27,876 bases of DNA, from the IMG/VR virus record IMGVR_UViG_3300037517_001164, positions 1 through 27,876 of that record. One strand, given 5' to 3'. Source of the stretch: a virus. The notes under the pieces are model-generated. The model had not been told where the DNA came from and did no database searches. It saw only the letters and a list, made by a program, of their open reading frames with translations. The position numbers and the translations under genes were made by a program. The first letter of the stretch is position 1; every line of letters starts with the position of its first letter. This document shows positions 3,596-24,200 of this stretch, one piece after another.

Positions 3596-4104
3596 TGAAA
3601 GTATTAAGTAGGAAAGGTAAACCAAACAAAGTAGTTTCAGACTACACACTAAATGATGTGTATAAGAACTATATTAAACTTTTTGATTTCCCTAAGACAA
3701 GTGGAAAATATTTAGGTAACTCAGAAGTACAACCAGTTAGTAAATCTGTTTTTAGAGCTGTTAACATGCGTTTGTACTCCTTAATGTTTGAAGCTATACT
3801 GCTTAAATCTTATACTGTTGTACTCCCATTTAAACTAGGAGAGCTTAGAGTACAGAAGAAGGAAATGCCTATTAGCTTACTTAAGACTAAGGGAAAACTT
3901 AAGATGGACTACAAATACTGGAGAGAAACTGGTAAGCTTAAATATCATTTAAATGAGCATAGGAACTATTTTAGATATAAGTTATATTGGGCATTTGCTG
4001 ATGTATCTAATATCAGATCTTACAGGCTTGAGCCAATTAGACATTGGCATAGAAAACTAGCCAATATATTACAAACAAATCATTCTATAGACTATTTCGA
4101 ATAA
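3595..4104 (+). CDS. Conserved-looking structural-module protein of unknown function
   Basis: This 169-aa, strongly basic protein has clustered Lys/Arg/His and aromatic residues (YWRETGKLKYHLNEHRNYFRYKLYWAF in the middle, RHWHRKLANIL near the end). The central VVLPFKLGELRVQKK, the tyrosine-rich section after it and the final basic helix recall a small protein often seen between tail-tube genes of crAss-like phages; I know no assigned function. There is no membrane segment, signal peptide or recognisable catalytic motif. TAATG junctions on both sides place it firmly in the tail-assembly operon. The basic charge would suit nucleic-acid contact in or near the connector, or a scaffold/assembly role. 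Both are guesses. Confidence 0.55.
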   Translation: MKVLSRKGKPNKVVSDYTLNDVYKNYIKLFDFPKTSGKYLGNSEVQPVSKSVFRAVNMRLYSLMFEAILLKSYTVVLPFKLGELRVQKKEMPISLLKTKGKLKMDYKYWRETGKLKYHLNEHRNYFRYKLYWAFADVSNIRSYRLEPIRHWHRKLANILQTNHSIDYFE

Positions 4105-4913
4105 TGCAGTTATACAAATACACTTCTTTAAAAGAAGTAATATTAAAAATATATAGGGACTCAGGTGCCGATCGTGATTTAAATATTGATGATCTAGCAT
4201 ACTGGGCCTATGAAGCTTTAGAGGGTGTAGCTTCCCCGCTAGTATATGAGTCTAAGATATACGGTCATAAGGAAGATGAGACATGGGACTTTGATGGGTT
4301 TAAAATTAAATTACCTAGTGACTTCCATAAGCTAAGAGCATTATCAGTAGATGGTATTACAGCTATTCCTTCAACTAATACTTACCATGAAATGTTAGAT
4401 GGTACTTGTTGTGGTTGGGATAGTGTTAGTAGCTCAGCTATAGAAACATACTATGATAACTTTGGTAATGCGTTCTCGCCTTCAGCTGAACCTATTACCC
4501 CACCAACAAAGCAAGGATTAGAACCTATCACATTTAACATAACTAATAATCATATTACATTCAATGTTAAGTCTGGTAAAGCTTGTATGGCTTACTGGGC
4601 TTTCCCTATTGATGATGAGGGTTTCCCTAAAGTACCAGATGAGTATGTAATCAAACAAGCTGTGTCAGCATACATTTTAGAGCGCTTAGACTGGAGATTA
4701 TTTAGAAAAGGTATTATCAGTGGTGATGTTTATAAAGTATCATTACGTGAACGTAATTGGGCTATGGCTGCAGCTTACGCTTTAGCTAGAACTCCAGATG
4801 AACATCAGATGGAGACTATGAAGAATATATCATTGAAGATGGTTGTCCGTAAGGATGAGTATCTATCAGCATTTAGAAATTTAGGTAAACAAGGACAGAG
4901 AGGTAGATATTAA
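4104..4913 (+). CDS. Tail-tube/ring-type structural protein
   Basis: This 269-aa protein has the layout of phage head-tail adaptors and P22 gp4-like tail proteins. An N-terminal helical pair (SLKEVILKIYRDSG, then DDLAYWAYEALEGV) leads to a beta-rich centre (FDGFKIKLPSDFHKLRALSVDG, ITFNITNNHITFNV, CMAYWAFPIDDEGFPKVPD). The C-terminal part is helical (EYVIKQAVSAYILERLDW, RERNWAMAAAYALARTPDE) and ends in a basic tail. The PDEYVIKQAVSAYILE segment preceded by a Y/W-rich strand is characteristic of the crAss-like ring/tail-tubular group as I remember it. It sits immediately before the giant tail protein, with TAATG overlaps on both sides. The role as a tail-tube or ring component is confident; the exact position in the virion is not. 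Confidence 0.65.
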   Translation: MQLYKYTSLKEVILKIYRDSGADRDLNIDDLAYWAYEALEGVASPLVYESKIYGHKEDETWDFDGFKIKLPSDFHKLRALSVDGITAIPSTNTYHEMLDGTCCGWDSVSSSAIETYYDNFGNAFSPSAEPITPPTKQGLEPITFNITNNHITFNVKSGKACMAYWAFPIDDEGFPKVPDEYVIKQAVSAYILERLDWRLFRKGIISGDVYKVSLRERNWAMAAAYALARTPDEHQMETMKNISLKMVVRKDEYLSAFRNLGKQGQRGRY

Positions 4914-7900
4914 TGTTAATACCATTAAAAAATAATTTAGGTGGGAATATGAATCAGGATATTTCTAAGGCTCTGTTAAAACCAGACTTAGTATATAATT
5001 CTGAGAATTTCCGTGTAGTTACTACTAATGGTGCTACAACATTATCACGTACTAACATTCGTGGTAATAAGTTTGATTCAGTTATTCCAGATATTAATTC
5101 TGTTTCTAAGATAGAAATTAACACTGAGTACTTATCACACTTATCACTTGGTAGTATATATTCTATCGTAGTAAATATTGATGGTACAAATTTACCTGCT
5201 TATCAATTTACTTATACTTCCCTAGCTGACTTATTAACTGGATTAACCTCTCATATAAACTCAAGCTTTGGTACTACTGTAGCTACTAGCTATACTGATA
5301 GTATTCATATATCCTCATCTGCTGTAACTAATGTATCTATAACTAGCTTTACATTTGTTAGTGGTGGTACTGGTTTAGTTAACTACAATCAGTACTTAAC
5401 ATTACCTAGAGTTGCTGGTGCTAATACTTTAAATTCATGGGTTGCTACTGATAGTGGTGGTGCTGGTATTGCTTATAGTAATCACCCTACATTTGTTAAC
5501 ATAGGGGGTCTAATGCAGTGGGTAGCTAATACTGAAATAAGTAATGGTCCTGCTTCATGGCATGAGGTTACACAAACAATACCTAAGACATTACCAACTG
5601 GTAATTACACTATAAATTTAAAGTACAAGACTGGGGCTATACAAAACACTACAGCTTATATATCATTAGATTTAGGTGGGGTTACTCCAATGTCTTATGC
5701 TCTTAGTGGTGGTCAAGATTATAGTGGTGTAGCTGGTGCCTCAGTTAGAACAATAACAACACCTATCACCCCTACTAATAATGATATAACTATTAGATTA
5801 GATTTCACACCTACTTCAATTACTCCTCCACCTACTACAGCTGCTGTAGTTTGGATTGTTGGTGTAGACTTGTACGGTCCTGGGATGTATAGTCAAATCT
5901 TTAATGTTACTAATAACTACATTTCTGGTGTAGCTAGTGCGCAGATAATTGGTTGGGTTACATTAAGAGATGATATTTATTTATTTACAACCTCATGTAC
6001 AGATCCTGATCCAGGTGGTGTAGATCCAATTAGTAATGGTCAGATATGGAAGTTTACTTATGATAGAACTGCTGACCCCAATGTAAATATAAATTCAACA
6101 TTAACTCTAATATACAATAGTGAGTTAAATTTTAGTACACAACATCCAATATTAAATCTTGGTAGAGTTGAAGCCAGGTATGAGAATGAAAACATTCAAA
6201 AGATATACTGGACGGATAATTTTAATCCTCCTAGATATATTAATGTCGCAGATCCCAATGTAGCTAGTTTAGCTCCCTCACAATTACTTTTAACACCAGC
6301 AATTGACTTTGATGTGTTAAACTTAACAGGTATCGTTAAAGGCGGTAATTTGAAGTCAGGGATGTATCAGTATGCATATAGGTTAAAGCGTAACAATGGT
6401 GCAGAGACTAGGTTCTCTATGCCATCAATATTAGTACCATTAACAGTACAGGATGAGTCTACCACAAATTGGATAGACTATTATGCTGTAGATGCTGGGG
6501 TAACTGTTGATAAATCTATTCAATTAGAAGTATCTAATATAGATACAAACTTTGATAGAATTGAGATAGCCTTCATTTACTATGGTACTAAGAATACAGC
6601 ACCTGAGATTAAAGTAATTTCAGATAATGTTATTACAGGATCTACAATGACTTTCCTACATACTGGGGAAGAAGATTCTGATTACCCAATTAGTATAGAT
6701 GAGCTTACAGCTTTCTCAACTAATATTGTTAGAGCTAAAGCTATGGCTACTAAGAACAATATATTATTCCTATCTAATGTTAGGACTAATACTTTTGATG
6801 TAGACTATGATTCAAGAGCTTATAGGTTTCCTTTAAACTCTACTACCACTACCTTATATGATGCACAAGGTACACCATACACTTTAACTAAGTCTGGTAA
6901 TACTTGGCAGATCACTGCTATAAATGGTTCAGCTGTAACACCTTATGATGTACCTGAGACATTTGATGCTATACAAGACTATGGTAATCAATCACCATTA
7001 AGTACTAATAACTTATTATACAAACCAGGTTCTGTATCAGCTAGTACCCTAACTAACCTAGGAGGTCAAGGACCAAATGTTAGTTATGAGTTTTCTAGCT
7101 TTCCTATATTAGCAGATGAGAAACAAATAGGTAATAGCTTTTCACCAGGATCATATAATGGAGCTCCTTATAGGAATATAATTACAAAGACTAATACTAT
7201 TATATCATTAGGTGATAGAGATCATACTAATGGTAATTTTTATGATTGTTTTGTTTCACCATTCTATGCACCATTAATGGCTGGCTATCAGCGTGATGAG
7301 ATGTATAGATTTGCTGTTGTATTCTTTGATGATCTTGGTAATCCTAGCTTCCCTAAATGGATAGCTGATATACGTGTACCACATGTGTACATGCCTAATG
7401 GTACAGCTAAACATCAAAGATTCTTAGCATACCCATTAGCTACTTATGATTCTACTAATGTGAAAGCTTATACAAATCAAATGTATTTGAAGTTTTCATT
7501 AAGTAATATACCAACTGAAGCTACTGGGTTTCAGATAGTAGTAGTACCTAGGACTGATAATGATAAACATATTGTTGGTCAAGGTGTATTTAACTTTGCT
7601 CAGAAAGATTACTCATCAGTAATAAGTGGTACAGCATTTTACTTATCACATGACTCTGCTACAGGTTTAGGTGGTAGTAATTATTACCCAGTTAACCTTA
7701 GGTCCGATTCTTTATTATGGCATAATGTAGGATCAATTAAATCTCCAGACTTTGACTTTAGAGGATTCCCAGGATTTCAAACTGGTGATTCAATAGACTT
7801 CGTTGGTATCTTGGGTACCAATCAAAATAGCTTTGTTTATGGGCAAGATTGTGGTAATGCTTTAGATGGTAATAACATACCATGTGAAGATGTAGCTTGG

Positions 7901-9979
7901 ATTATAAGTAAATACTACTCACATATAGATACAGCTAATTCTCCTTATTGTATTAAGGATAGTGCAGCTGATGGTCCTATATACCCAGTCCACGAATCAT
8001 TTCTAGCAGGACATAGTTCAACATTTGGTGCTTATAACCCATCAACATTATTAGTTTATAATACTAATGCTAGAGTAGGTAATTTCTCACCAAGCAATAG
8101 TAATACAGGATTTGTAACAAGATATTCAACAGGCTCTAATAGAGCTGCTATTATATTTGGTGGTAATAAACCTACTTCAGGTAACCTTAATGGCTCAGTT
8201 GATTTCTTAACAACAACATTCGGTGGTAGAGGATATGCTGACTTAGATAGTTGGACTTCTCAAGGTGGTAGTTCTTTATATAAATATATTGTAAACTACA
8301 ATAGAACATTGAATGCTCAATACAATGGTAGTTCATATGCTCAGCGTAGTACTAACACATACATACCAGTATCTAACTACTTTAAAGTAACAGGCGTTAA
8401 TATGCCTAACTTACTTATAGCTGGTGGTGATACTTACACACAAGTCTACGATACTATCATGGATTTTCCAGATTGGAAACGTAGGGTTGGTGATAGTGCA
8501 ATATCAGTTATGGACCCTAGTGGTGCTGGAGGTGGTGATAATAGTATATTGATTGGAGAAGCTGGTGGTATAACTTTATGTGTACCACTTGAAAGTACTA
8601 TTAATACTGAACTACGTGGTAAAGATATTTTACCAGCAGCTATACCTAATTACTCTGATCCTTTTGGTCAAGGTAGTAGTGGTGCAGTTGATACTGTAGA
8701 ATCATTTGAAGCAACAACCTGTGACTTGTTTAGTTGGAATCCCTACTATATGGTTCACGTTGCTAAACCATTAAACTATCAAAACATTAACGAGTATGAT
8801 ACACGGACCTATAAGTCGGAGACTAAAACTAACAGCGAAGATATTGATTCATGGACTACATTCTTACCTGAAGCTTACAAAGACGTGGATAGCAAGTATG
8901 GGCCTATTAACAATCTTATTGTATTTAAGGATAAGTTATTCTATTTCCAAGATAGAGGATTTGGTTTATTCCAGGTTAATGCACAACAACTTATACAAGA
9001 CGCTACCAGTACTTCTGAACTTGTTCTAGGAACTAGTGGTGTACTTGAAAGATATGATTATATATCAACTATTGTAGGCTCTAAGAATCAATCAGGGTTT
9101 GCTGTAAGTGATGATTCAATAGTATTCATTGATGTCTTGGGTAGGAAAATATTTAAGTTTAGTGCTCAGGGTACTGAACCATTAAGTGATATCAAAGGAC
9201 TTAATGCTTTCTTATACAGGAAGCTAGATGGTTTAATACAATCAACTGATAACCCTATAACTGATAATGGTTTTGTTTGTACATACGATCACAGATATAA
9301 TGAGTTCTTAATATCAATGCTTGATAAGAATGAAGAGGTTGGTACAGGTGATTACTTTACTATAGCTTACAGTGCACTCACAGATGGCTTTACATCCTTC
9401 TATTCTTATTACCCAAGATTATACATTAACGATAGATTAAATATCTTTACTGTCCCTGGTAATACTAATAGTGATGGTGGTTATATTTACTTACAAGACT
9501 ATGGTCAATATGGTAAGTTCTATAACAAGCCAGTTGTAGATAGTAAGGTTAGCTTTATAGTTAATCAGGAATCAGATAAAGAAAAGATACTAACTAACTT
9601 TGAATTTGTTACTGAGTCTTATCAGGATATAGGTATATATGATATATATAATCCTATGTCAGTACCAGTACCTTATGATTTCTTTAAATCAATTAGGGTT
9701 AGTAATACTTATCAGAATACAGACTACATACTATGTTCTGAAACTGCTAAGCGTAGAAAAACATTATGGAATGTACTAGTACCTGGTAACAGGGTACTTT
9801 ATAACAATAAGGATATTGTTGATATCTTTGATACATCTAATATCTCTCAAACCAGGTTAGCTTTAACTCAACGTATGAAAGATCGTTGGTTCTTAGTTGA
9901 TGCTGTATACGATAATAGTAATAACTATAGGTTTGTGGTTACTAACTCAAACTCTTTAGTTATGTTAAATACCAGATAA
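4913..9979 (+). CDS. Very large tail protein (muzzle or P22 gp10-like tail stabilisation protein)
   Basis: This 1,688-aa protein is rich in Asn, Ser, Thr, Tyr and Gly and looks almost entirely beta. It has no membrane segment or signal peptide. The N-terminus, LIPLKNNLGGNMNQDISKAL followed by YNSENFRVVTTNGATTLSRT, has the pattern of phage tail nozzle proteins (T7 gp12, P22 gp10 and crAss-like muzzle), which open with a short strand, a Gly-Gly turn and an N-F-R-V-x strand. Strands and turns recur through the middle, and the C-terminal half (VFKDKLFYFQDRGFGLFQV, VFIDVLGRKIFKFS, YDHRYNEFLISMLD) shows the propeller-like blade repeats expected in such proteins. The length is large compared with T7 gp12 but in keeping with the oversized muzzle of crAss-like virions. 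It likely forms the distal tail tube that gates DNA release. It starts by a TAATG overlap and ends one base before the next ATG. Confidence 0.75.
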   Translation: MLIPLKNNLGGNMNQDISKALLKPDLVYNSENFRVVTTNGATTLSRTNIRGNKFDSVIPDINSVSKIEINTEYLSHLSLGSIYSIVVNIDGTNLPAYQFTYTSLADLLTGLTSHINSSFGTTVATSYTDSIHISSSAVTNVSITSFTFVSGGTGLVNYNQYLTLPRVAGANTLNSWVATDSGGAGIAYSNHPTFVNIGGLMQWVANTEISNGPASWHEVTQTIPKTLPTGNYTINLKYKTGAIQNTTAYISLDLGGVTPMSYALSGGQDYSGVAGASVRTITTPITPTNNDITIRLDFTPTSITPPPTTAAVVWIVGVDLYGPGMYSQIFNVTNNYISGVASAQIIGWVTLRDDIYLFTTSCTDPDPGGVDPISNGQIWKFTYDRTADPNVNINSTLTLIYNSELNFSTQHPILNLGRVEARYENENIQKIYWTDNFNPPRYINVADPNVASLAPSQLLLTPAIDFDVLNLTGIVKGGNLKSGMYQYAYRLKRNNGAETRFSMPSILVPLTVQDESTTNWIDYYAVDAGVTVDKSIQLEVSNIDTNFDRIEIAFIYYGTKNTAPEIKVISDNVITGSTMTFLHTGEEDSDYPISIDELTAFSTNIVRAKAMATKNNILFLSNVRTNTFDVDYDSRAYRFPLNSTTTTLYDAQGTPYTLTKSGNTWQITAINGSAVTPYDVPETFDAIQDYGNQSPLSTNNLLYKPGSVSASTLTNLGGQGPNVSYEFSSFPILADEKQIGNSFSPGSYNGAPYRNIITKTNTIISLGDRDHTNGNFYDCFVSPFYAPLMAGYQRDEMYRFAVVFFDDLGNPSFPKWIADIRVPHVYMPNGTAKHQRFLAYPLATYDSTNVKAYTNQMYLKFSLSNIPTEATGFQIVVVPRTDNDKHIVGQGVFNFAQKDYSSVISGTAFYLSHDSATGLGGSNYYPVNLRSDSLLWHNVGSIKSPDFDFRGFPGFQTGDSIDFVGILGTNQNSFVYGQDCGNALDGNNIPCEDVAWIISKYYSHIDTANSPYCIKDSAADGPIYPVHESFLAGHSSTFGAYNPSTLLVYNTNARVGNFSPSNSNTGFVTRYSTGSNRAAIIFGGNKPTSGNLNGSVDFLTTTFGGRGYADLDSWTSQGGSSLYKYIVNYNRTLNAQYNGSSYAQRSTNTYIPVSNYFKVTGVNMPNLLIAGGDTYTQVYDTIMDFPDWKRRVGDSAISVMDPSGAGGGDNSILIGEAGGITLCVPLESTINTELRGKDILPAAIPNYSDPFGQGSSGAVDTVESFEATTCDLFSWNPYYMVHVAKPLNYQNINEYDTRTYKSETKTNSEDIDSWTTFLPEAYKDVDSKYGPINNLIVFKDKLFYFQDRGFGLFQVNAQQLIQDATSTSELVLGTSGVLERYDYISTIVGSKNQSGFAVSDDSIVFIDVLGRKIFKFSAQGTEPLSDIKGLNAFLYRKLDGLIQSTDNPITDNGFVCTYDHRYNEFLISMLDKNEEVGTGDYFTIAYSALTDGFTSFYSYYPRLYINDRLNIFTVPGNTNSDGGYIYLQDYGQYGKFYNKPVVDSKVSFIVNQESDKEKILTNFEFVTESYQDIGIYDIYNPMSVPVPYDFFKSIRVSNTYQNTDYILCSETAKRRKTLWNVLVPGNRVLYNNKDIVDIFDTSNISQTRLALTQRMKDRWFLVDAVYDNSNNYRFVVTNSNSLVMLNTR

Positions 9980-9980
9980 T

Positions 9981-12443
9981 ATGCCAAGAACAAATAGAGC
10001 GCGTGTCAGTGGTGACACTTCAAAACCAGTAGAACCTATATATACTAGTGACCCTAATGATCCTAGACTTAAAGCTTATCAGGATAGTTTAAATGTGTAT
10101 AACGATTTTGTAAAAATAAAAAATTTATTAGATAAAAAATATTCATCTAATGATTTTATTAAAAATAAAGAAGACTATCCTAGAAATCCTGATGGTAGTA
10201 TTTGTTATGCTTGTATAAAAAAAGAAGCTGAAAGAAAAAAAGCTAAAGAACAATTTCGTACTGGGGATTTAAATCAACTTGTAGATCCTAATATAAACCC
10301 CAGCGGTTATATAAATTATTTAAAAGATAATATAGTTTTTGATGAGAGTGTCGCTAAAATACAAGATTATTCCAATGCAAAACCAGTACAACCAGTAGTA
10401 TACAGAAAACCTGAAACAGGTAATACTAATATAATGGGTGATGCTGTGTTAGGTAGTGGTAATGATTTTAGACATCAACCAGGTGGAGTATTTTACGATC
10501 CAGAACCATCTACACCTAAACACCCAACTACACCAACTATGAAAAAAATGCCTATGCGTGGTATGCCTAATACTAATGTTAGTGCTGAACCTATTGGGAC
10601 TACTCCTAAGAGTACTAAAGGTATGTTACTACCATTATACTTAGATAGTCGTGGTGAATGGGTAGATGCTCCACAAACAGGTCAGAACTATAGCCCAGAA
10701 CAATTACGTAAGATGGGTTATAGATTTAATGATGGTGTAAAGAATAGGGCTACAATTAATAAGTATGGTGGTGGAGGAATTGTTAAAGAAAAAAGCATGC
10801 TTGCTAATCCTGTAGAAAGCATATATGATAAGAAAGGAAATCTTATAGGTATTCAAAATACTGAACAAGGCACATCTGATTATGGCACTATGGAAGATTT
10901 AGATGTTAATAATTTGGATAATATAAAAGCTAGATTACAAAAAGAAATATATGCACGTAGATCTTCTTATTTAAGAAATAGTGCAGGACCTACAAATTAT
11001 CAGTTTATAGAAAATGAGGGATTAGATCGCCAGTTCTTGAATAGACTTAACACTCAGTCTATTTATCCTAAAAAATATGACTTTGGTGGTTTAGTTGACT
11101 ACTCAACTACTAGAGATGCTAGAGCTAACTCTTTAGCTAGTATGGGTGCAAGAGCATCAAGAGAAAGAAATAGTTCAAAAAATTATAAAACAGGTTTTGG
11201 TAATTATTTAGCTGACACTGGTTTAGGTCTGGCAGATACTGCTTTAGCTGTGGTTGGTTTAGACAATGTAATAAATTCTGATACATACTCAACTAAACTT
11301 GGTGCTAATCAATTTAATAAGGCAGCACAATTAAGTAGTAAAGTATCTGAGATAGTAGCCCCGCTAGTTCTTAGTGCTGTAGGTGGACCATTAGCTGGTG
11401 CTGCATATAGCGCTGGTAGATCTGCTCTTGAGGGAAATGTTAACCCAAACACATTTAAACATGGTGGACAAGCAATGAAAACACAAATTAATATAGAAGG
11501 TTCTAGGAAACAAATTGGAACCATACAAGACATGAAGAAGGGAGAACTTAGAGTTGATCTCTTAGGTAATGTATTACAGAATTACGCACCATTTAATCCA
11601 CACCCAACTAACGGTATGGACCCATCAAGTACAGTTACTGTAAATGAAGGTGATGCTATTATACCTAAAAAGAAATCAGTTGATTTCAAAAACTCTAATA
11701 GGAGAGATCGTCAAATGATGATTATGTCTTTGATATCTAAGCAGAAAGCTAAGGAGAGAAAATCAGGTATACCTATGGCTGAAGATGGTTGGGCTAGTAC
11801 CTCATTAAAAAATTGGACTAGTATATTATCACCAGATCAAATGCAAGCTGATATGGCTAAGGGTACAGGTGGTGGTAATGGATTTAAGTGGAGTTCTTTA
11901 GCTTCTAAAGCTCCAGAGATCTTAGGGTTACTTAGTCCTGCAGCTAAGGTTGGTAGAGGGTTGTTTGATAGGGTAGAGAATATAAATGCCTCTGACTATA
12001 CTGTACCTACTAACTTAAAGCCTAGCTTAATAGATGATAAGGCTAGTCAGATGATGATTAACGATGCTACTAATGCTGGGTTAGCTTCACTTCGTAGAAT
12101 CAACTCTTCACCAGCTTCGATGGTTAACATGACAGTTAACTCAATGAAACAGAAGTGGGGAGCTAGACAAGAAACAGATAGAGCTAATGCTACATCTATA
12201 ATGAACACAGATCAGTTTAATCAACAGTCTAGAATATTTAATTCTCAAACAGGATTAAAGATTAGAGATATGAATGATATGAATAAGTCTGCTAAACGTA
12301 ACATGCTTATGGAAGGTATTAATGACTTTAGTAAGTATGGTAATCAAAAGAGATATGATAATGCTTTCTTTGAAGCCTTACCAATGATGGGTGATAACCC
12401 ACAGTTTCAGGCATGGTTGAAGAAGAATGGTTATTCAAAATAA
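9981..12443 (+). CDS. Large virion protein, probable internal cargo protein
   Basis: This 820-aa hydrophilic protein has one long weakly hydrophobic, Ala/Gly/Leu-rich stretch at about residues 405-490 (GLADTALAVVGLDNV, then VAPLVLSAVGGPLAGAAYSA), flanked by short glycine motifs (YDFGGL near 364, FKHGGQAMK near 495). After these comes TQINIEGSRKQIGTIQDM and VTVNEGDAIIPKKK, an E/G-rich beta element that I associate with large structural proteins of Bacteroidetes phages. Position after the muzzle-like gene and before the RNA-polymerase giant matches the internal cargo proteins of crAss-like virions, which would be ejected with the DNA; the amphiphilic stretch would suit membrane insertion. The first ~200 codons use AAA almost exclusively for lysine, unlike the rest, which suggests a recently exchanged N-terminal part. 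It starts 2 nt after the previous stop. The function is inferred. Confidence 0.6.
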   Translation: MPRTNRARVSGDTSKPVEPIYTSDPNDPRLKAYQDSLNVYNDFVKIKNLLDKKYSSNDFIKNKEDYPRNPDGSICYACIKKEAERKKAKEQFRTGDLNQLVDPNINPSGYINYLKDNIVFDESVAKIQDYSNAKPVQPVVYRKPETGNTNIMGDAVLGSGNDFRHQPGGVFYDPEPSTPKHPTTPTMKKMPMRGMPNTNVSAEPIGTTPKSTKGMLLPLYLDSRGEWVDAPQTGQNYSPEQLRKMGYRFNDGVKNRATINKYGGGGIVKEKSMLANPVESIYDKKGNLIGIQNTEQGTSDYGTMEDLDVNNLDNIKARLQKEIYARRSSYLRNSAGPTNYQFIENEGLDRQFLNRLNTQSIYPKKYDFGGLVDYSTTRDARANSLASMGARASRERNSSKNYKTGFGNYLADTGLGLADTALAVVGLDNVINSDTYSTKLGANQFNKAAQLSSKVSEIVAPLVLSAVGGPLAGAAYSAGRSALEGNVNPNTFKHGGQAMKTQINIEGSRKQIGTIQDMKKGELRVDLLGNVLQNYAPFNPHPTNGMDPSSTVTVNEGDAIIPKKKSVDFKNSNRRDRQMMIMSLISKQKAKERKSGIPMAEDGWASTSLKNWTSILSPDQMQADMAKGTGGGNGFKWSSLASKAPEILGLLSPAAKVGRGLFDRVENINASDYTVPTNLKPSLIDDKASQMMINDATNAGLASLRRINSSPASMVNMTVNSMKQKWGARQETDRANATSIMNTDQFNQQSRIFNSQTGLKIRDMNDMNKSAKRNMLMEGINDFSKYGNQKRYDNAFFEALPMMGDNPQFQAWLKKNGYSK

Positions 12444-12452
12444 GAAGAAGAT

Positions 12453-14741
12453 ATGGGAATAAATAGATACGATAAAGCACCAGAATGGAACCCAGGTGTA
12501 TTACCATATGAGCTGATATTAAAAGCAGCTGATATGACACAACAACGTTGGGATAAAGCTAGGGCAGAATCAGATCAGGAAGTATCTGACATATTTAAGA
12601 ATGTTAGAACTGTACCTCAAAGTCAAGATGAGTTAGGTAATTTACCAGCTATTAGATCTAAGTATAAGGAGTTACAGAATCAGTTAATTACTGATCCTGA
12701 TATGAATCCTACTAAATACTCTATGGCTATAAATAACTTTGTATCAGAGAGTAAACCTCTGTTAGATCGTATGACTAGCTTAGCTGATTTATACAAAGCT
12801 AACAATACAGCTTTAGCATCTAAGATGATGGACCCTGACTTCAGGGCTGATAATAAGTTGTTACCTTGGTTACAATTTAATCCACAAGATGTAGACTCAC
12901 GTAGTCAAGATCCTTGGGAAGCTAATATGAATTATAAGTTTACTCAAAACTGGGGTACACATATAGAAGGTAAGTTATTAAACAAATGGGTTGGTAGCGC
13001 TATTAATCCACAAGCTATGATAGACCCAACAACTGGAGCATTCACTACAGAGTTCGGTAAGACTATAGCTGACTTAGAAGAGAAAGCTAATACTGGTGCT
13101 GTAAACTATATGCAGTCTGAAAACTTTAATGATTTTATCAGTGGTGATAGGGAACTATTAGGTACTGTACCTGATGATGTACTATCGCAATTAGGTGGTA
13201 AGACTTACTTTGATGGTAAAGCTATGTATGAGTTAACTCCCTACGAACAAGCTAAAGCTATGATTATGCTTACAGGTGCTGAGCAAATAAATAGTAAGGT
13301 TAACATAGCTAAAGGATTAGCTAGTTCTAGTGATGGTAAAACTGATAAACCACAAATGCAAGCTCCTGTTAATGCTTATGTTGCTTCTGACCAAGTTACT
13401 CCTAAAGACTTTGCTGCATTCAATGGGTTACAATTACAAGCTAATGGTACAGTAATTGTTGATGCTACAGATCAAGGTATAACACAATTTGGTAATAGGG
13501 GATTAACTAATGAGCAAGAAGTTAAAGAAGCTAATTACAATACTGTACAAGAAGAGAATATGGCTAAGCTTGGTTTAAGTGCCCCTATAAAAACTATGTA
13601 TACTTTAAGTGAGAAACTTAAACAAGCTAGAATACAAAATAGAGCATTCCACTTATTCGATGATAATAACTATAGTGTAGAGAAGCGTAACTTCTTTAGT
13701 TCTATATTAGACTTACCTTCTGGTATGACTGATAAAAACTTTACAGAATTCTATGTAAACATGACTAAGGAATATAAAGCTGCTACAGATGAGTTAGCTG
13801 CTAGTGTAGCTAATCTTGATACATCATCGCCTGAATGGTTAGCTATACAAAATGCTGCATTAGAGATGGGTGAAGTTATTACTAAGCCTAGTGATGTTGT
13901 AGCTTTAAATAATAAGTTATTAAAAGCTCAATTAGATAAATCTGCTAAGATGACTGAAGAAGAAATGATTCAGGAAGTTAGAAGCAAGATGGGTTATAAG
14001 ATAATGAATTCTGGTGAAGCTCCATTTAGAGTAGCTACAGGAGAAAAGAATGTAGTTAGTGTAGATGATAAGAGATTCATTAAGGGTTATATTACATTCG
14101 GACCAACAGTTACAGATGATGGTAAAGAAGTATTATCTGCAGAAGAAAACTTTGTAAACTACATGGAAAGAGTAGCTCCAGATATGTTTGATATGTCACC
14201 ATTAGATAGTGGTACTTACGGTTCCTTTGGAGAATTCTGGGAAGATATAGGTAGTAAGATAATGAAAGTTAATCCTGGAACTAGGGGTGGTAGTTCATTT
14301 AGTTTACAATACTATTTACCTGAACAGATTAATACTCCTATAAAAGCTCAAAGCTTTAATAGGCAAGCTGCTGGTGTTGGTTCTACATATGATGCTAATC
14401 AGGATGCTTGGAATAGTCAATACCCAGAAGTACTTATGCAGTTAAATGAGACTAGGGTAGCTGACAACATAGCTAAAACTAAAGGTGCTGCTACAGCAAT
14501 TAGTTTAACTATGCAGAATGTATTGAATAACAAGCGTACTCCTAAAGCAGTATCTAATGTATTGTTACCTTTGTTAAAGCAATACAAAGAGTCTAATGAT
14601 TACAAAGGACTTGCTAGATTGAATATATTAATACGTGAGGGTATAGCCTCTGGATGGCCTGCAGAAATTGTAGATGGTATATCTGGAAACCCCACTCAAC
14701 CTCAGGGACAGCAGGGCAATCCACTGGGGGGAATACGATAA
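12453..14741 (+). CDS. Internal virion protein, 0-frame product (762 aa)
   Basis: This 762-aa, helix-rich, soluble protein has no signal peptide or membrane helix. The N-terminus (GINRYDKAPEWNPGVLPYEL, then ADMTQQRWDKARAESDQEV) and regular heptad-like stretches suggest an elongated virion protein. It lies between the cargo-like gene and the polymerase giant, so it is probably packaged or tail-associated. It ends with GQQGNPLGGIR and TAA at 14739-14741, a low-complexity Gln/Gly/Pro tail that looks like a linker rather than a natural C-terminus. Exactly there, a G GGG GGA heptamer allows a -1 shift into the transglycosylase-like frame. That would give two products, 762 aa and a 924-aa fusion, analogous in logic to internal virion proteins that carry a peptidoglycan-degrading domain. 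The gene call is certain; the role is inferred. Confidence 0.7.
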   Translation: MGINRYDKAPEWNPGVLPYELILKAADMTQQRWDKARAESDQEVSDIFKNVRTVPQSQDELGNLPAIRSKYKELQNQLITDPDMNPTKYSMAINNFVSESKPLLDRMTSLADLYKANNTALASKMMDPDFRADNKLLPWLQFNPQDVDSRSQDPWEANMNYKFTQNWGTHIEGKLLNKWVGSAINPQAMIDPTTGAFTTEFGKTIADLEEKANTGAVNYMQSENFNDFISGDRELLGTVPDDVLSQLGGKTYFDGKAMYELTPYEQAKAMIMLTGAEQINSKVNIAKGLASSSDGKTDKPQMQAPVNAYVASDQVTPKDFAAFNGLQLQANGTVIVDATDQGITQFGNRGLTNEQEVKEANYNTVQEENMAKLGLSAPIKTMYTLSEKLKQARIQNRAFHLFDDNNYSVEKRNFFSSILDLPSGMTDKNFTEFYVNMTKEYKAATDELAASVANLDTSSPEWLAIQNAALEMGEVITKPSDVVALNNKLLKAQLDKSAKMTEEEMIQEVRSKMGYKIMNSGEAPFRVATGEKNVVSVDDKRFIKGYITFGPTVTDDGKEVLSAEENFVNYMERVAPDMFDMSPLDSGTYGSFGEFWEDIGSKIMKVNPGTRGGSSFSLQYYLPEQINTPIKAQSFNRQAAGVGSTYDANQDAWNSQYPEVLMQLNETRVADNIAKTKGAATAISLTMQNVLNNKRTPKAVSNVLLPLLKQYKESNDYKGLARLNILIREGIASGWPAEIVDGISGNPTQPQGQQGNPLGGIR

Positions 14742-15226
14742 GAGATAAGTTCAAGTCTGCCCTAACAGTTCCAGAAGGAACTAATAATAACTATGCTGCA
14801 GTTAATCCTAACAGTAGTGCTCGTGGAAAATACCAAGTATTATGGAAAGCGCATTCTGATGCTATAGCTAAAATAACTGGTGTAAAGAAGGAGGAAGATT
14901 ATTTGAAAAATAATGTAGCTCAGGAACAATATATGGATTACTTATTCGATTCATATAGTAAGAATGTACCAACATTAAAATCTAAGTTTCCTGGAGCTAG
15001 TGATGAAGTCTATATGGCTATGGAACACTTCTTAGGATTACCTGATACTAACTTATACCTACAAGCTTATCAAAGCGCTAAGCGTAATAACTTAGGAGAC
15101 ATTGAAGCACATAGTACAGCACAACAAGCTTTAAATCAAGCTTATTTAAAACGGTATGGTAAAGTTTATAAGAACTCTACTGTATTAGATTACCTAACAC
15201 AATTCGCAAACACATTCAATAAATGA
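14654..15226 (+). CDS. Transglycosylase-like peptidoglycan hydrolase domain, probably reached by -1 frameshift from 14732
   Basis: The conserved-looking sequence begins at 14732 (NTIRDKFKSALTVPEG, then NYAAVNPNSSARGKYQV). It follows the lytic-transglycosylase pattern: Glu, a short Asn-rich loop, A-V-N-P, then G-x-Y-Q and a helix. The candidate catalytic Glu is in VPEG (residue 41 of this ORF, 775 of the fusion). The remainder is helical (EEDYLKNNVAQEQYMDYLF, EVYMAMEHFLGLPD). The only ATG in frame, at 14654, would add 26 residues (MACRNCRWYIWKPHS...) that are an out-of-frame reading of the upstream gene and look unlike any domain leader; no GTG or TTG lies between. So the domain lacks a credible start and is most simply expressed as the C-terminal part of a 924-aa fusion. 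Its TGA overlaps the giant gene's ATG (ATGA). Alternatives are a rare ATA start at 14738, a real start at 14654, or a homopolymer sequencing error. Confidence 0.65.
   Translation: MACRNCRWYIWKPHSTSGTAGQSTGGNTIRDKFKSALTVPEGTNNNYAAVNPNSSARGKYQVLWKAHSDAIAKITGVKKEEDYLKNNVAQEQYMDYLFDSYSKNVPTLKSKFPGASDEVYMAMEHFLGLPDTNLYLQAYQSAKRNNLGDIEAHSTAQQALNQAYLKRYGKVYKNSTVLDYLTQFANTFNK
14726..14732 (+). promoter_or_regulatory. Candidate -1 ribosomal frameshift site G GGG GGA
   Basis: In the frame of the upstream gene the codons are CTG GGG GGA, so G14726 plus GGG GGA forms a perfect X XXY YYZ heptamer (X and Y = G, Z = A). Slippage by one base moves ribosomes from the 762-aa frame into the transglycosylase-like frame at AAT (14732), two codons before the 0-frame stop. 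The six-G run stands out in this AT-rich genome. Confidence 0.6.
14767..14782 (+). other. Small hairpin downstream of the slippery site
   Basis: AGTTCC (14767-14772) pairs with GGAACT (14777-14782) around an AGAA loop. It starts 34 nt after the heptamer, further than the usual 5-9 nt spacing of frameshift stimulators, so its involvement is doubtful unless it forms part of a larger fold. Confidence 0.35.
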
Positions 15227-18200
15227 GACCAGAAGTATTAAAATACTTATTAACAGGACAAACGCAGACAGGTGTAAATAATACACTTGATGCAATGCAA
15301 GCAACTAACAATGTACCGTATTATTCAGGACCTTCACCTGAAGGATTTACTACAGACCCAGGTTTAATTCAAGATAGCTGGTCACAGGATAATACTCTCA
15401 ATACATTCTTAAATGCTATGGCTAGTATAAATACTGGATCATCAAAAACTCAACTGCGTAATCTTAACTACAACAAGATGAAGCAGATGGAGGAGATTTA
15501 TGATTTACAGGATCGTATGCAGAAGGCTTCTGAGAATAATGATTTAGTAACAGCTGCTTCATTACAAGATGAGTTAAGTAGAGCTAAACAAAAAGCTCAA
15601 GAGTTTGACCAGGAAACTGCTACGAAAACTATGGAGCTAGAAGAGGATATTAAATACGGTTCTGGTTTAACTGGTTTAATTGCTGGGGGTGAAGAAGATA
15701 TAGCTCGTAGAAATAAGGATATAGATTTAGAGTTTAAATTACTCTCTGATATGTTCCAGCGTGATGCTAACACTTCAGCATTCAATGCTTTTAAGTATGA
15801 GTTTGGTAAAGACTTTGGTAGCTCCTTTGGTACTTTAGGTGCTACAGTTGCTGCTGCATTTACTCCTAAACTTATTAAGGCTGCTATAGCTAGATTAGTT
15901 ACAGCTGAAGCTGCTGGTTCTATGGCTCCTGGTATAGGTAATGCTGTAGCTGCTGGTGCTACGTTAGCTGTGTTAGCTGGTGATCTGGCTGTACAATGGA
16001 AAGCTCGTGTACAAGAGACTGAGGCTGAAGAGAATGATGCATACGAGGAAGCTGTTTCTTTACTTACCCAAGATTACATGCTCAAGAATAATATCCAGGA
16101 TATGGCTGAGCTTGAAGATCCTAAACACCAAAGAGAGTTAAATAAACTTTCAATGAAAGCCCATGAAGAATTAGAAGGTTTGCGAACTAAGAACATGGGA
16201 TTAATGTTTGGTGATGTATTACAATCTATACTTGCTGTTACACCTTTTACTAAGGTAGGTAACATAGCTTTGGGTACTAATCGTTGGATGCGTACTGGAT
16301 TAAAGATTGGTGCCTTGACCTTGAATACCAATATGGAAATGAACGAGGAGGGTAGTCAATGGTTATTCACTAGACAATATTTAGATAAGGTATTAGGTAA
16401 GGACACAACAGGATTAAAGGATACTACTAACTATAAAGATGATAGCTTCTTAGGTTTACTTAGTCAAGCTTCCCAGTTAGCAAGTGATAGATTTGAAGTA
16501 GAGAAGGCTATCTTTGGTAATGGTAACTCTTCATTGTATACTAACAGCGAGTTTATATCAGCTGTAAATGCTGGTGCTCTTGCTGCTGGTCCTATGATGA
16601 CTTTACCACAAGCTGCTAGTATTATTAGCGATCACTATGGATATGCTAAAGCTAAATCGTATTTAGGTAGAGCTGCTAAAGAGCAAGCTAATGGTGAGTA
16701 CTTAAGATTTAAGTATGACACTTATGCTAAGTATATTGATAATGATAAAGAGGATTACTTCATAGATTCTATTAGATCATTATCTAAAATCGAAGGTAGT
16801 AATATTACCCCAGCAGATGCTGAGAAAGAAGTATTAAGATTTAAGAAAGCTAAGGCAGAGTTTAATAAGATAGATGATACACAATATATTTTCAATCTTA
16901 TTGAGAAGTATGACTTTAGAGGTATTAGTAAAGATGATCGTAAGAGAGCTATTAAGAATAGCTTAATGATTGGTGAGTATACTGAGCAGATAGCTGATTT
17001 ATTCTCACTTAAGAATGATGAGATTAATCCTTACAGAGCTATCATAGATGAGCCTACTGATAATGAGGCTAGAACTAAATTACTAAGTAAAAGAAAAAAG
17101 TTATTTGATTCATTATTAGATCCTGAAAAGGCTAAGAATTTAAATCTTAATGAGATCTATGATGATCTTGATATTCCAATTATACTTAAAGAGAGAGCTA
17201 TAGCTAGACTCTTAAAAGAGAATGAGCGTATAGCTTCAGGAGAATTCAGTAAAGAAACTAGAGAGAATAATAAGCTAGCTAGATTAGGTACTGAAGCTCA
17301 GAAGTCTGGTTTGTCTTATAAGTATGGAGACCAATATGTTAAGAATTCTAACATGGTTGGTATGGATAATAGTGTGAAAGGTGAGAAGGAATATATCGAG
17401 TTCTTAGAAGATCTCGAAGAAACCTCATTGCTTAGAGACACTGATAAAAGAAGTAACGTACAACGTATGTTAGATCTTGAGGTACTACCTCAGGAGATAT
17501 TAGCATATGCTGAACAAGTTAAAGCTCCTATAACTAAAGAGCAGAATGATGAGATAGTAAAACGTATAGGATTAAAAGCTTCAGAAGTATTTAATAAAGC
17601 TTCAGAGGTTGAAGATTCTCTTGGGGATAAGAATAAGATAACTACCATTGATGAGTTAAACGATTTAATGGATAGTGCTTATATTGAAGATCCTGATTAC
17701 TATCAGAAGCTTAAAGCTTTACGTGAAGAGTATACTGATGCGTTAAAGCTACAAGATAGGTTACAAGAAGCTAATTTAATTAGAGAACCTAAAGGTATAT
17801 CCACTTCAAAGGTAGATAAAGAAATCACATTCGTATGGGATCGTTTCTTAAAAGAAATGGTTGGTGAAGTTGATAAAGCTAATACTGATAGTGATTACTT
17901 AGATGATTCTGTAATAGCTGCTTTAGAAAAGAAACTTAAATGGCTTAAGGAAGTATTAATAGAAGAGAAACAATTATATACTAATCCTGATAAAAAGATA
18001 TCAGTGGAGTTAAAGAATGCTATTGAGCAACTTGAACAAGACTTAGCTAACGCTAGAAAAGCTATTAGAGCTAGACTTGCTGATAAGGAATTAGCTCAAG
18101 AAGAATCTTATACCATAGCTACTACGAATACATTAATACCTATGGGTATTACGTATACACCTAGTACTGATAAAGATGCGGTTGTAAAATTCAATTTACC

Positions 18201-21200
18201 TTTAACTGATGCTATTAAAGACGCTTTAAAAATATTCATTGATAGTGTATTAGTACAAGATGCTACTGGTAAATATTACTTACATCACAGCTATGCTATA
18301 GCTATGAATGAGTTTGTTTATAGCTCAATGACAGATCCTAATGACCCAGTTAAATATTGGAATCAGCTAATTGATTTTAGAAATGCTAAGATTGATGATC
18401 TGTATTTATATTGTAAAACTAAGTTTGAGGATTTAAATTTATATGGTACTCCTTTTCATTTAGATAAGGCTTTACTAGCTAAAGATCCTGAAACATTCTT
18501 AACTCAATATTTACTTTCTGTTTATAGAAGTACCTTCTTGGATATATCACATCCAATTAGTCAGTATATAAACACTAAGGATATAACTATTATAAATAAA
18601 GCTTCTGATGATTCTTTAATCAATCCTGAAGATGGTACTGAGAGTACACAACAGATAGCTGACTTACGTAATCTTTTCTACATGTTAAATGTAGTTAAGA
18701 ACATACCTGGTAATTATAATAATCCTGCAGTTAATACTAAGGATATGTTATTGAGTGAGGTAAACTTATTCTCTACTATCACAGAATATATACCAACCAA
18801 ACAACAACTTGTAACATTACGAGAGTTAGTTAATTGGTATAAAGGTAATCCATTAACTGGTCCTGTAGCTGTTGTACTTGGTTATGCTGGTAGTGGTAAG
18901 ACACAAGTTGTTACTAAGTTATTACTTAAGCTATTAAATATTGATAGTACTAAGATAGTATCATTAGCTCCAACTAAATCTTCTAATAAGAACTTAGCAA
19001 TAGCTTTAGGTAAATCAGACCCTAATGATGCTAATCCGCTTGAGACATTCTTAAATACGGATTCACAAGTACTAGCTGACTCACCTATCATTATAATTGA
19101 TGAGGCTGGGTTGTTATCTGATGAACAATTAGACAAGATTAATAGAAAGATACTTGAAGCTCAAGCAATAAACCCAGCAGTAAAGGTTGTAATGATGGGC
19201 GATCCAACACAGTTATCTACTTTAACTATACCACCATTTATCGCACAACCTATTGGTGAATATCCTTCTAAAGAGTTTATGTCACCATTAACGATTACAT
19301 ATCGTACTGATGATATTGATATAATTAGAACACAGAAAGAATACCGTAATAAGGTAAGTGTTGTTGATAAGGTAACTACTGCATTAACTTCAGATAAAGC
19401 TAATGGTAGCTTTGGAGTTAATAGTAAAGTTGACTTATACAATATGCTTATCGCTAATCGTGGTAAAGGTAGACATCAATTAGTTATTGTTAACTCAGCT
19501 AAAGAAGTACAAGAAGTAACTAAAGAGTTAGCTGACTTGGGTGTAACTAATGTTGATGTGCTTGAGATACATGAAGCTCAAAGCCATACTGTAGATGAAG
19601 TATATGTTATGCTAACACCTACTGGTAAGTTAGCTCCTAGACATGATGGTACCGTAGCTATGTTTAACAAAGCTATGTATGTAGCTACATCTAGAGCTAA
19701 GAACTTAGTAGTTATACATTCACCTACAACTAAGTTTACTAATGATAATAAAACTTTAATAGCTGCTGAACAACGTAAGGCACCTACTAAGGATGAGATT
19801 AGTAACTTTGTTGGTGAGCTACAAAAACAATATGATAATATATCTAACAGTAATCTAAATGCTAATTTAAAAGCTGCTGTAGTTAAACCAGCTGCTAATG
19901 ATCCAGCACAAACTAATTCTGCTAATCCAACTAATCCTAAGCCTGCAGATCCTGATAATGAGGGTATTGTAGCTGATGATGATATGGATCAGGATAATGA
20001 TACTGTTGATTTAGCTAGGGAAGAATTAAATAAGCCTGAAGATTTTCCTATAGAAAATACGCAGGAACCACAAGTTATAATTAATACTCATAACTTGAAG
20101 TATCCACAATACTTCTCTATTAAAGATAAGGATAAAAAGATTACAACAGGCTCTCAAGTACAATATGTAAAGTACTGGGATAAGGCTAACAACAGAGCTG
20201 GTCTAGCTATCATTGCTCAGGGAGCTGATGGTTCATGGTATCTGATTGGTGTAATAGGTAAGGATGATATAAATGAAATAGGTAAGTATAAATTACCTAA
20301 GGAAGTTGTAGATGCTATTACTAGCCCTGAGTTTCAAACTAGGGATGCTGATGATATTGAGTGGTCTGAATTCAAGGGTAAGGAAGGAAAATTAACTACA
20401 GATCTGGGTGATAAGAATCCTCCATTGCTTGTAGGACAAATTGGTAATGCTACACCTAAGTTCTTTAAGTGGGGTCCTTTAAAAGACTTTAGAGAGTTCT
20501 TAGATACTATGTATGTAAAGATTATGAGTACATACTATAGTGATAGTGGTAACTTAGAATCATTTAATCCTATTGACGATAAATACAATTGGGAATTAAA
20601 GATATATAATAATGCTGAGATAATTAAACAAGGATTAAATCCTCGTGTAGTTAGACCTGGTGTACCTTACCAAGTAATTAAAATTACTCATAAGAGTGGT
20701 AAAGAAGAAGTATTGTATGTACCATTAACTACTAGAAGATTAAACTTAAATTTAGATTCTTCTGTTAATGAGTTACGTGGCTTCTTAAATAACATAAAAG
20801 ATATTCATAAGATACTATCTGTATTAGATGGTGATACTAAGATACGTTGGGGTGGACTAAAGGTTGTACCTGGTTATGACTATGTTAATAAGTCAACTGG
20901 TAAGACTATTGGTAGAACTCAAGCAGAGATATTCTCTAAGTTACTTAATCCTAAGTCTGAGATTTCTAAGAAGGTAATAGAAGAGCTTACACGTAAAGGT
21001 GTTGATATAGCTACCTATAATAATCTTATTAAGAGTATTCGTACTGGATTATTTAACCCATTAGCTTTACACGAGTATGGTTATGATCCTAACAATGCTG
21101 TTATAAATGATGAGGGTACTGATGAGGATTTCATGTCTAAGTATTTTATTACTGGAGACAAAGGTTCTAGAAGAGCAGTTGAAGGTCCAGTAAAACTTGG

Positions 21201-24200
21201 TGAGAATAGTTATACAGCACACCCTACATTAAAAGGATTCTATTTAATAGAGAAGGGTAATAAAGGATTAAAGGTTTGGCGTAAAGTTTATAACTTTAAA
21301 GGCTTACATATTAAGATTGATATACCTGTAGATAAAGATCTTGCTACTGGTAAAGAGCGTATGCCTGTATATGAAATACACTCACAAGAGTTTATAGATC
21401 AGAATGGTGGTAAACGTAATTACAAACGTATACTAGATGGTGGTACTAAAGTTGAATCTGGTATTATCCATAATATGGATATTGATCCTTCACAATATGT
21501 TGAAGAGTTAGTTATTGATGGTTTAATTAATGAGCGTGGTAATCATGGTCCTGCAGCTAAAGCATTTGATTCTATAGCTAGGGCTAACTCATCTGTGTTC
21601 ATTGGTGATAAAAGAATATACTTAAGACAGACTAAACAAGAATATAAAGATGGTGTAGCTACTGGTCATAAGTATTTCTCAGGATTAAACTTATTATATA
21701 ACCCTGGTAATGGCACTAAGGCTCATTACATACACAGCCATAGACCTACTAAAGGCGAACCATCTGCAGTAACTGTAGTTGAGGAATTAGATCCTATCAC
21801 TGAAGAAGTATTAGATGCTTTAGTGGGAGATAATGCTTTTGATAATAATGGTGATAGTATGGTTAATAGTGGCTTTGGTTTAAGATTACCAATGCATACT
21901 AAAACTGTAAATAGGTTTCCTACTGAAACTGAACAAGGATATAAACAAAGAATTCAAGATGATCTGATAGATGATTTTGAAACTTCATTAATGGGTATTG
22001 AACCTACTAGTATTACTATTAACAATGTTAAGCCACCAATTAAAGAAACTCAACCTATAGAATCTAAAAAAGCTGATATAGAAAGAAGAAGACAAGAGGA
22101 GTTAATTAAAGAAGTGAGGGGATATGATTATGAAATAAAGTATAGACCTGATGTAGCAGCAAGATATGATAAAGCTTTACAAAACTGGATTGATATTGCT
22201 GATATAACTATTGAAGGGAGAAAAAAAGGTTTGTATTCAAATCCAGAAGCTAATAAAGGTTATGTAGATAGTAGAGAAGAAAATATTGAAGCAAAAAGAA
22301 AATATTTAGAAATTAATGCTAAATATGATGCAGAATTAGCTGCTTTAGAAGGTGGTGTTTCTACAGATGCTAAAGCTGATATAGAAAAAAGAAGACAAGA
22401 AATATCTTCATTTTTTAATAAAAATGATTATACAACAGAAGTTACTCTTGAAAATGATGAGTATACATTAAAAGTATATGATAAAAAAAGTACTTTCTCA
22501 AATGTTCCGATATTCAAGTTTCAAGGAAATATAATAGACATAGATGGTAAAAAATATATTAACGTTTATGAAGTAAGTACTAAAAAGGAATATCAAAATA
22601 AAAAAATAGCTACTAATTCATATAAGTATATATTAGAAAATTTACCTTCTGGCGTAAAAGGTTTATACTCTTTTTCAGAAATGAGAAAAGGTGTAATGGT
22701 ACCTAATATATATAAAACTTTAAGTAAAGATTATACTGTTACTACGGACTCTAAAGGAAATATTCTTGTTAACTATGATGCAGAACTAGCTGCTTTAGAA
22801 CAATCTATCCCTAATGATGTAGCTCATGTACCACAAGATCCTAGACCTGCTAATGATTTCGCTGCTGATGGTAATGATATTGATTTAAGCTGGGATGATG
22901 ATACTGATAGTTTTGATTGGACAGTACGTGATACTACAACTCCTACTAATTGGGTTACACCTAGTTTAGTTAGACAAGCAGCATCAGAAATATTTGGTAA
23001 GGACTTTGCTTCAGATCCTGATAAATTATTATTCTTATCTAAAGCTGAAATGATTAGACGCTTTGGTAAGGATGTGTGGGGTAGATATGAGAAGGGAGTT
23101 ATTTACTTAATGACTAATGCTCAAGGTGAAGCTTCAATAGATGTATTGAGACACGAGGCTTTCCATAGAGTAACACATGCTTACTTTAATGCTGAGCAAC
23201 GTAAAGAGATATATAAGTTAGCTATACAAGCTAACCCATTATTAAAGGATAAGACTAACCGTGATATTGAAGAGTGGTTAGCAGACTCCTTTATGTCTTA
23301 CCTAAGACAGCCAAACTTTGTTAGTAGGCTATTACATAGTTTCTTCAGGAAGATAAAGAGTATATTTAATATTCAATTATCTGCTCAAGATAAGATTGAA
23401 AGTTTCTTTGATCGTATACAGAAAGGTAACTTTACTTATGAGACTGCTAATGAAGCTGTTGAAGGTACTGGTTTAAATAAATTACTTATACATGCTTGGT
23501 TTGGTACTCCAGAAAGACAGTACAAGGATTCAGCTGATAATTATAACTTAGCTCAAGTAGCTATATTAAAATCATTAGCTAGTAAAATATCCCCAGACTC
23601 TCCTAGGAACGATCAGTCTAATGGTATAGCAATGTCTATTAGAACTGGGGCTAATGGTAAGGTATATTACAATGGAGCTACTATGACTCCAGAGGATGCT
23701 AAGTTTGCTGTATATGCGGATTTGAAAGATCAGTTTAATAACTTAAAAGATAAAGCTCCAATATGGTTAAAGATATTGGTTGGCGGTATAACTGAGAAGG
23801 AAGTTAAACGTGCTAATATGATATACAATAATGTATATGATTACTTAGTACAAAGTACTGATAGTATTAACTTAGATAATTCTGACGAGACATTTGGTGA
23901 TGATCCTTCTTTAAAGGATGAGATCGAAGAGTCTTGGCGTATAAATTACGAGTCACAGTTACTTGCTTCTGTTAAAAACTTAATGTCGGCATTGTTTATT
24001 AAACAATATGATGCTGAAGGTAATGTACTTTTAAAAGAATATATTCCTAGAAGAACAGTATTCTATATAAGTTTAAAACTCCTTAAAGGTATTGAAAACT
24101 TTGATATGAATGCTATTCAAGCTATGTCTTTGAATGCTACTAAGCTTGGTTGGAAAGATGACTCTGGAGATCCTAAAGTAGGTAGAGTGTATGACTTCTT

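Follow-up and report, generated by a model that had tools for sequence, protein, structure and literature searches.

How is a hydrolase domain without a start codon of its own made by a phage? The question is raised by a 27,876-nucleotide stretch of DNA, positions 1 to 27,876 of the IMG/VR record IMGVR_UViG_3300037517_001164 (hereafter the window), which is crAss-like phage DNA. In it, a 762-amino-acid open reading frame (ORF) at the gene place of cargo protein 2, here called C2, is followed in the -1 frame by a transglycosylase-like domain. The heptamer, the frame relation, the change of coding frame, the homology found for the extension and the recurrence of this architecture in six further phages, all read from sequence, argue that the 3' end of C2 is very probably a -1 programmed ribosomal frameshift site, which would give a minority C2-hydrolase fusion for DNA entry.

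The C2 ORF ends CTG GGG GGA ATA CGA TAA, as a preliminary description made from the letters of the window had claimed, and G GGG GGA is phased there as an X XXY YYZ heptamer. The frame relation (-1) and the fusion size given in that description were also borne out, as 760 residues of C2 and 164 of extension add up to 924, with the -1 frame stopping at 15226. That description had the -1 frame open at 14732; it is in fact open already from 14639, and the two frames overlap by 103 nt. The overlap contains a second X XXY YYZ word, A AAC CCC at 14687, which was rejected as a slip site, since the -1 frame is non-coding over 14654-14731. There, the mean codon log-odds are -0.68 in the -1 frame and +0.18 in the 0 frame, while from 14732 onward the -1 frame scores +0.35, i.e. 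as coding. Because the -1 frame becomes coding only from 14732, the ATG at 14654 is an unlikely start, in agreement with its earlier reading as an out-of-frame shadow. Past the slip, the first 67 codons of the -1 frame include no ATG and the first 57 no ATG, GTG or TTG, so the window offers no start codon near the domain, as had been said. The Gln/Gly/Pro-rich linker placed at the seam does exist, but sits on the 0-frame side. The same six Gs are present in the IMG/VR contigs 3300042860_000924 and 3300044911_000947, both >99.9% identical to the window; thus, at the assembly level, three assemblies have six Gs, not the seven that would make one continuous gene.

Loci spanning the junction between C2 and the next gene were gathered by scans based on the muzzle protein plus contig extension. 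One muzzle scan comprised the best 80 of 170 loci, many of which end before the junction, and C2 was chosen in each locus by position. In 37 of the 44 junctions measured, the two ORFs lie no more than 22 nt apart or overlap, and C2 has no extension; these include L018, with a gap of 12 nt taken from an extended contig. The remaining seven, the window included, have gaps of 364-1991 nt, and every one of these long gaps contains a C2 extension in the -1 frame; a perfect heptamer lies 0-21 nt ahead of the C2 stop, and the extension stop within 52 nt of the next start. The 37 are not all independent, given that L024 and L041 (identical muzzle) and L030 and L132 (near-identical) were all retained. 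The near-duplicates L013, L075, L078 and L092 and the unannotated L036 were left out, and L116, in which C2 could not be told, stands outside the count. No C2 extension was found at the place of crAss001 gp46 in eight named phages that were scanned. Seven further named phages, outside the 44 and judged by annotation only, have gaps of 1-12 nt and no extension; they showed in-frame stops in the scan, presumably due to recoding. A scan of the genome collection gave five muzzle relatives, of which L143, the only one with its C2 place covered, has no extension. As for conservation of the site in related phages, proposed earlier as a check, the -1 relation and a slip heptamer are kept in six divergent phages, but the heptamer itself and the hydrolase differ.

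The heptamer is G GGA AAG in four of the seven phages, A AAA AAG in two and G GGG GGA in the window, and a stop codon follows it directly in four. As background, 302 in-frame heptamers occur in 41,247 codons; 10 of them belong to the three types used, all A AAA AAG. Multiplied together, the seven chances come to 1.8e-7 if any heptamer is allowed and to 1e-17 if only the three types are, the former being the fairer figure because the three types were named after being seen. Among 363 -1 overlaps, a heptamer is present in 14 of the 353 with a possible start and in 5 of the 10 without one; this set includes near-copies of the window, which sit with the window itself among the 14. The start-less pairs without a heptamer (L009, two in L039, L053 and L067) are not cases of the pattern. 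Compact hairpins of -9.9 kcal/mol or below, beginning 2-10 nt downstream, accompany five of the seven sites, as compared to 11 among 302 heptamers elsewhere, 9 among 280 positions drawn at random in C2 and none of 20 stops of extension-less C2. Only this compact-hairpin test was used, because longer hairpins are common among control heptamers: when up to 75 nt are allowed, 27% of 110 controls also reach -9 kcal/mol. L085 has a longer stem (71 nt) downstream of its heptamer. Shine-Dalgarno-like (SD-like) words lie upstream of the heptamer at some of the seven sites only and were not used as evidence. In the window, the weak hairpin past the heptamer is probably too distant for a classical stimulator.

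These observations bear on transcriptional slippage, in which the polymerase would add a G on the run of six and ordinary translation would yield the fusion. An uninterrupted run of Gs provides what slippage of a polymerase requires, and a site without a near hairpin fits this well. However, the other six sites are G GGA AAG, which is no homopolymer, or A AAA AAG; both words are highly shift-prone on E. coli ribosomes (PMC5009743, here and below from the available part of its text), and five of these six sites have the downstream hairpin. The same source discusses bacterial transcriptional slippage for runs of nine As or Ts. We consider this explanation unlikely and -1 tandem slippage by the ribosome the best supported mechanism; that the shift at the G run of the window is ribosomal is an inference, and a slipping polymerase may be at work there instead.

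Alternatively, the hydrolase might be a separate gene, started at ATG 14654 or at an unusual codon and coupled to C2 termination. That ATG does lie in the -1 frame, overlapping genes are frequent in the operon of the window, and L010 and L066 have an ATG at the domain edge, the kind of in-frame start that the preliminary description had named as a point against a frameshift. Yet the frame of the coding signal switches at the slip in all seven phages, the -1 frame being non-coding upstream of it and coding from it; the switch is weakest in L076, where the 0 frame scores -0.04 and the -1 frame -0.39 over the last 30 codons of C2. In the six cases that have an ATG, L010 and L066 included, the -1 frame is already coding between the slip and the first ATG, and L085 has no ATG, GTG or TTG anywhere past the slip in the extension frame. 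A start at ATG 14654 was rejected on the codon scores and on this coding stretch, and a separate gene would leave the heptamers unexplained; we rate it as still less likely than slippage of the polymerase. Two further readings are scarcely credible: that an error in sequencing or assembly split one continuous in-frame fusion, since, although homopolymers are error-prone and in-frame C2 fusions occur in the clade, three contigs agree on six Gs (for which this reading was rejected) and seven phages would need an error in the same direction, each within 21 nt ahead of the stop and four in the mixed word G GGA AAG; and, no better, that an indel cut off a hydrolase no longer made, since, even if hydrolases do move in and out of C2 within the clade, the extensions are full, stop-free domains with the codon bias of host genes, and it is improbable that decay struck seven times at perfect heptamers with hairpins.

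What a programmed frameshift would add to C2 is suggested by the extensions themselves: all seven resemble peptidoglycan hydrolases, of at least four kinds, by sequence comparison (Table 1). A structure model of the L010 extension, computed without an alignment, was unusable, with a predicted local distance difference test score (pLDDT) of 39.6.

The 164-residue extension of the window is a probable lytic transglycosylase, with residue 15 probably the catalytic Glu. The earlier label "transglycosylase-like" thereby becomes a probable assignment, by way of a homologue in Leptolyngbya phage Lbo-JY46, the alignments, and matches to phrog_4067 and 3bkh. In tblastn, a 54-residue match (44%, 2e-6) falls in the C-terminal part of an ordinary 495-residue gene of Lbo-JY46 (L035 3870-5357). 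This homologue matches the phrog_4067 transglycosylase at 2.9e-4, Pfam Transglycosylas at 0.0011, under its cut-off, and the gp144 lytic transglycosylase 3bkh, which we take to be that of phage phiKZ, at 0.015. The window domain and the homologue share the presumed catalytic Glu as well as the motif N-P-N-S-S-A-x-G-K-Y-Q. In an alignment of 13 rows, the Glu is aligned in the 5 that clearly reach it, and A-x-G-K-Y-Q-x-L-W is invariant. The domain is modelled as all-helical with a pLDDT of 79, and VIA-align of the model gave, among its best matches, Z scores of 5.8 for MltF, 5.1 for T4 lysozyme and 5.1 for phi6 lysin, middling values that stand among those of unrelated helical chains. Judged by eye, the neighbours of the Lbo-JY46 gene resemble crAss-like cargo genes.

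The nature of C2 is suggested by its gene place. In crAss001 the order is gp44 (muzzle), gp45, gp46 and gp47, which matches that of the window and puts the 762-residue ORF at gp46; the "virion protein" of the preliminary description can be narrowed to a counterpart, by position, of cargo protein 2 of crAss001. A profile of the C2 proteins of the clade (16 rows) matches, over its N-terminal 130 positions, gp46-place proteins of Suoliviridae at 95.9% probability. The C2 proteins are highly divergent, with 12-20% identity to the window C2 among 15 relatives. Neither a DNA search nor tblastn matched the window C2 in the annotated phage collection, and the cargo 1 ORF and the giant ORF, the latter cut to its first 2000 residues, had no match in it either. 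When viral contigs were scanned with one protein at a time, the domain, C2 and the beginning of the giant ORF recovered no more than the two near-identical contigs, and the C2 of L010 recovered only itself. The 820-residue ORF ahead of C2 has no Pfam match, the cargo 1 domain included.

Several points weigh against the frameshift reading. The window site has no compact hairpin within 10 nt downstream, which is its main weakness. Its G GGG GGA is also odd among the seven, being neither a mixed nor an A-rich heptamer, and a run of six Gs, though the only one in the window, is unremarkable by itself, as about 1.4 are expected in order-1 simulations; what is remarkable is the switch of coding frame, together with the related phages. 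Scans that printed heptamers were where five of the seven sites first came to notice, so the probabilities given above are not fully blind; L076 and L088 were encountered only after contig extension. As for the domain, that of the window has no significant match in Pfam or PHROGs, its model falls below a pLDDT of 50 at residues 14-30, where the presumed catalytic Glu sits, and none of the 50 rows listed by Foldseek, nearly all of them globins, had E <=0.001. Lastly, the C2 profile is tied only weakly to crAss001 gp46 itself, matching the gp46-place proteins of its group (Steigviridae) at 19.6% probability.

Table 1. Features of the window and of related loci (L numbers); extension rows give the heptamer and the matches.
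Feature	Position	Strand	Remarks
Muzzle protein, crAss001 gp44 equivalent	4913..9979	+	Pfam crAss_MUZ 4e-158; query for finding relatives
820-aa ORF, cargo protein 1 (gp45) place	9981..12443	+	position only
C2, cargo protein 2 (gp46) place, 762 aa, 0-frame product	12453..14741	+	gene position
ATG, sole -1-frame ATG upstream of slip, probably unused	14654..14656	+	-1 frame non-coding through 14731
AGGG, SD-like, possible stimulator	14713..14716	+	ends 9 nt upstream of heptamer
Slip heptamer G GGG GGA	14726..14732	+	two codons ahead of C2 stop
-1-frame extension, 164 aa + stop	14732..15226	+	tblastn, alignments, coding signal
C2 0-frame stop TAA	14739..14741	+	
Weak 6-bp hairpin, -6.3 kcal/mol	14767..14782	+	34 nt past heptamer
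Giant ORF, virion RNA polymerase (gp47) place	15223..27876	+	truncated by window end
Extension, window			G GGG GGA; transglycosylase-like
Extension, L010			G GGA AAG; PHROGs endolysin 8e-21, tape measure 8e-18, tail injection transglycosylase 5e-13
Extension, L066			A AAA AAG; PHROGs function-unknown 8e-18, endolysin 9e-13, tail lysozyme 1e-5
Extension, L085			G GGA AAG; PHROG endolysin 3e-7; ChiX 0.012
Extension, L111			G GGA AAG; 662 aa; Peptidase_M15_3 1.4e-4, just under its cut-off
Extension, L076			A AAA AAG; Phage_lysozyme2 3e-18
Extension, L088			G GGA AAG; Phage_lysozyme2 1.4e-29; NlpC/P60 1.5e-7
Post-muzzle gene, L010	14820-17882		Phage_lysozyme in frame
Post-muzzle gene, L018	5815-11046		Phage_lysozyme in frame
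Post-muzzle gene, L068	15466-18291		SLT domain in frame

The giant ORF that follows C2 is taken as the virion RNA polymerase (vRNAP) on its position, its size and the motif GSDFDVD, found by eye near the window end, which we take to be polymerase-like. A stretch GYAGSGKTQVV, presumably P-loop helicase-like and also spotted by eye, precedes that motif. At 15223-15226, the TGA stop of the extension is overlapped by the ATG of the giant ORF as ATGA, by which translation of the polymerase may be coupled to shifted ribosomes.

On a muzzle tree of 44 rows, which differ from the 44 junctions in that L116 is in and L143 out, all seven frameshift cases fall in one 17-row clade with a Shimodaira-Hasegawa-like approximate likelihood ratio test support of 100. 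The clade contains none of the eight named phages in the tree, and not every member has a frameshift extension. The frameshift label requires at least five changes, and 30 of 500 shuffles need as few; L116 and the three in-frame cases described next were labelled "no". The trait has therefore been repeatedly gained or lost, or the labels are incomplete. In L070, L082 and L101, of the same clade, a hydrolase-like domain is joined to C2 in frame. Those of L070 and L082, lysozyme-like by eye, match phrog_14527 (function given as unknown), which the L066 extension also matches; that of L101 matches the endolysin phrog_2649 at 0.0012 and, in Pfam, only VanY, weakly. L018 and L068 carry a hydrolase in the post-muzzle gene instead of C2, and L010 has one there in addition. 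No hydrolase was found in the proteins scanned of L073, L103, L081 and L102. The occurrence of hydrolases in C2, in frameshifted C2 or in the post-muzzle gene indicates that they move among the ejection genes and that the frameshift is one means by which they are attached.

Other broken or overlapping frames were also met. In L009 (4177-8954) and L067 (5315-10395), the muzzle gene is divided into overlapping frames with neither a start nor a heptamer, probably by assembly errors. Upstream of the muzzle gene of L132, at 6286-7352, a -1 overlap has A AAA AAA six nt ahead of the stop; with an ATG 48 nt past that stop, this pair is probably ordinary. The annotated major capsid gene of L044 (bajarodcaudo virus 1, 2050-6137) consists of four fragments, between which lie small ORFs and annotated intron endonucleases.

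In the frameshift reading, most ribosomes would terminate at the TAA at 14739 and release the 762-residue C2, while a minority would slip one base back on G GGG GGA, read on in the -1 frame and make a 924-residue C2 with a C-terminal lytic transglycosylase. Plain and extended C2 would both be packed as cargo, and the few copies bearing the enzyme would open the peptidoglycan as the ejection proteins exit the particle. We infer the efficiency of the shift and, by analogy with crAss001 and T7, the minority status and packing of the fusion and its role at entry. In T7, gp16 is an ejection protein with a peptidoglycan-cutting domain, a transglycosylase thought to open the peptidoglycan on ejection. 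C2 would resemble it in carrying such a domain; however, gp16 is encoded by a single continuous gene with the enzyme at the N-terminus, whereas the enzyme of C2 is C-terminal, reached by frameshift and exchangeable. In crAss001, gp46 is named cargo protein 2, was detected in virions by mass spectrometry and is expected, together with gp45, to help form the ejection channel (PMC10172136, in the available part of its text). C2 occupies the same gene place as this virion-packed protein, with gp45 on one side and the gene for the RNA polymerase on the other, but gp46 has no extension.

Minority frameshift products, and Ig-like domains added to phage coat proteins by frameshift, are already known (PMC5009743). 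In the tail assembly chaperones G/GT of lambda, likewise, a morphogenesis gene has a -1 shift close to its 3' end, which makes a minority extended form. However, gpG and gpGT are not part of the finished virion and serve to guide tail length (PMC5009743), whereas C2 would be virion cargo of a short-tailed crAss-like phage and the added part an enzyme. G GGA AAG is reported as well for an archaeal virus, in its g-t genes (PMC5009743). Another parallel is offered by the Ig-like additions of T3, A2, A118 and PSA, where a minority of the copies of a virion protein acquire, by frameshift, a C-terminal domain that can be exchanged; such domains are attached by in-frame fusion in other phages (PMC5009743), as are some of the hydrolases here. 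They differ in being a surface-displayed fold on coat or tail proteins, while those of C2 would be diverse peptidoglycan hydrolases on an internal ejection protein. Among the matches listed in our literature searches, which left subscription papers and preprints mostly uncovered, no title or abstract concerned frameshift-added hydrolases or frameshifting in crAss-like virion genes. By a term count, neither the virion structure paper (PMC10172136) nor an order-wide review uses the word "peptidoglycan".

More tentatively, and with rather less chance of being right than not, the C2/vRNAP junction may be a recombination socket ruled by the frameshift, in which unrelated hydrolases are swapped behind a kept slip site, in most cases accompanied by a hairpin, that fixes the enzyme copies per particle. 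Given that the extensions stop so close to the next start in all seven phages, shifted ribosomes could also set the amount of vRNAP relative to C2. If the frameshift reading is true, we propose that it answers how some crAss-like phages get through peptidoglycan. It would extend frameshift-added virion domains from Ig-like folds to enzymes, with one slip place serving interchangeable enzymes, and gene callers would list such hydrolases as truncated or start-less.

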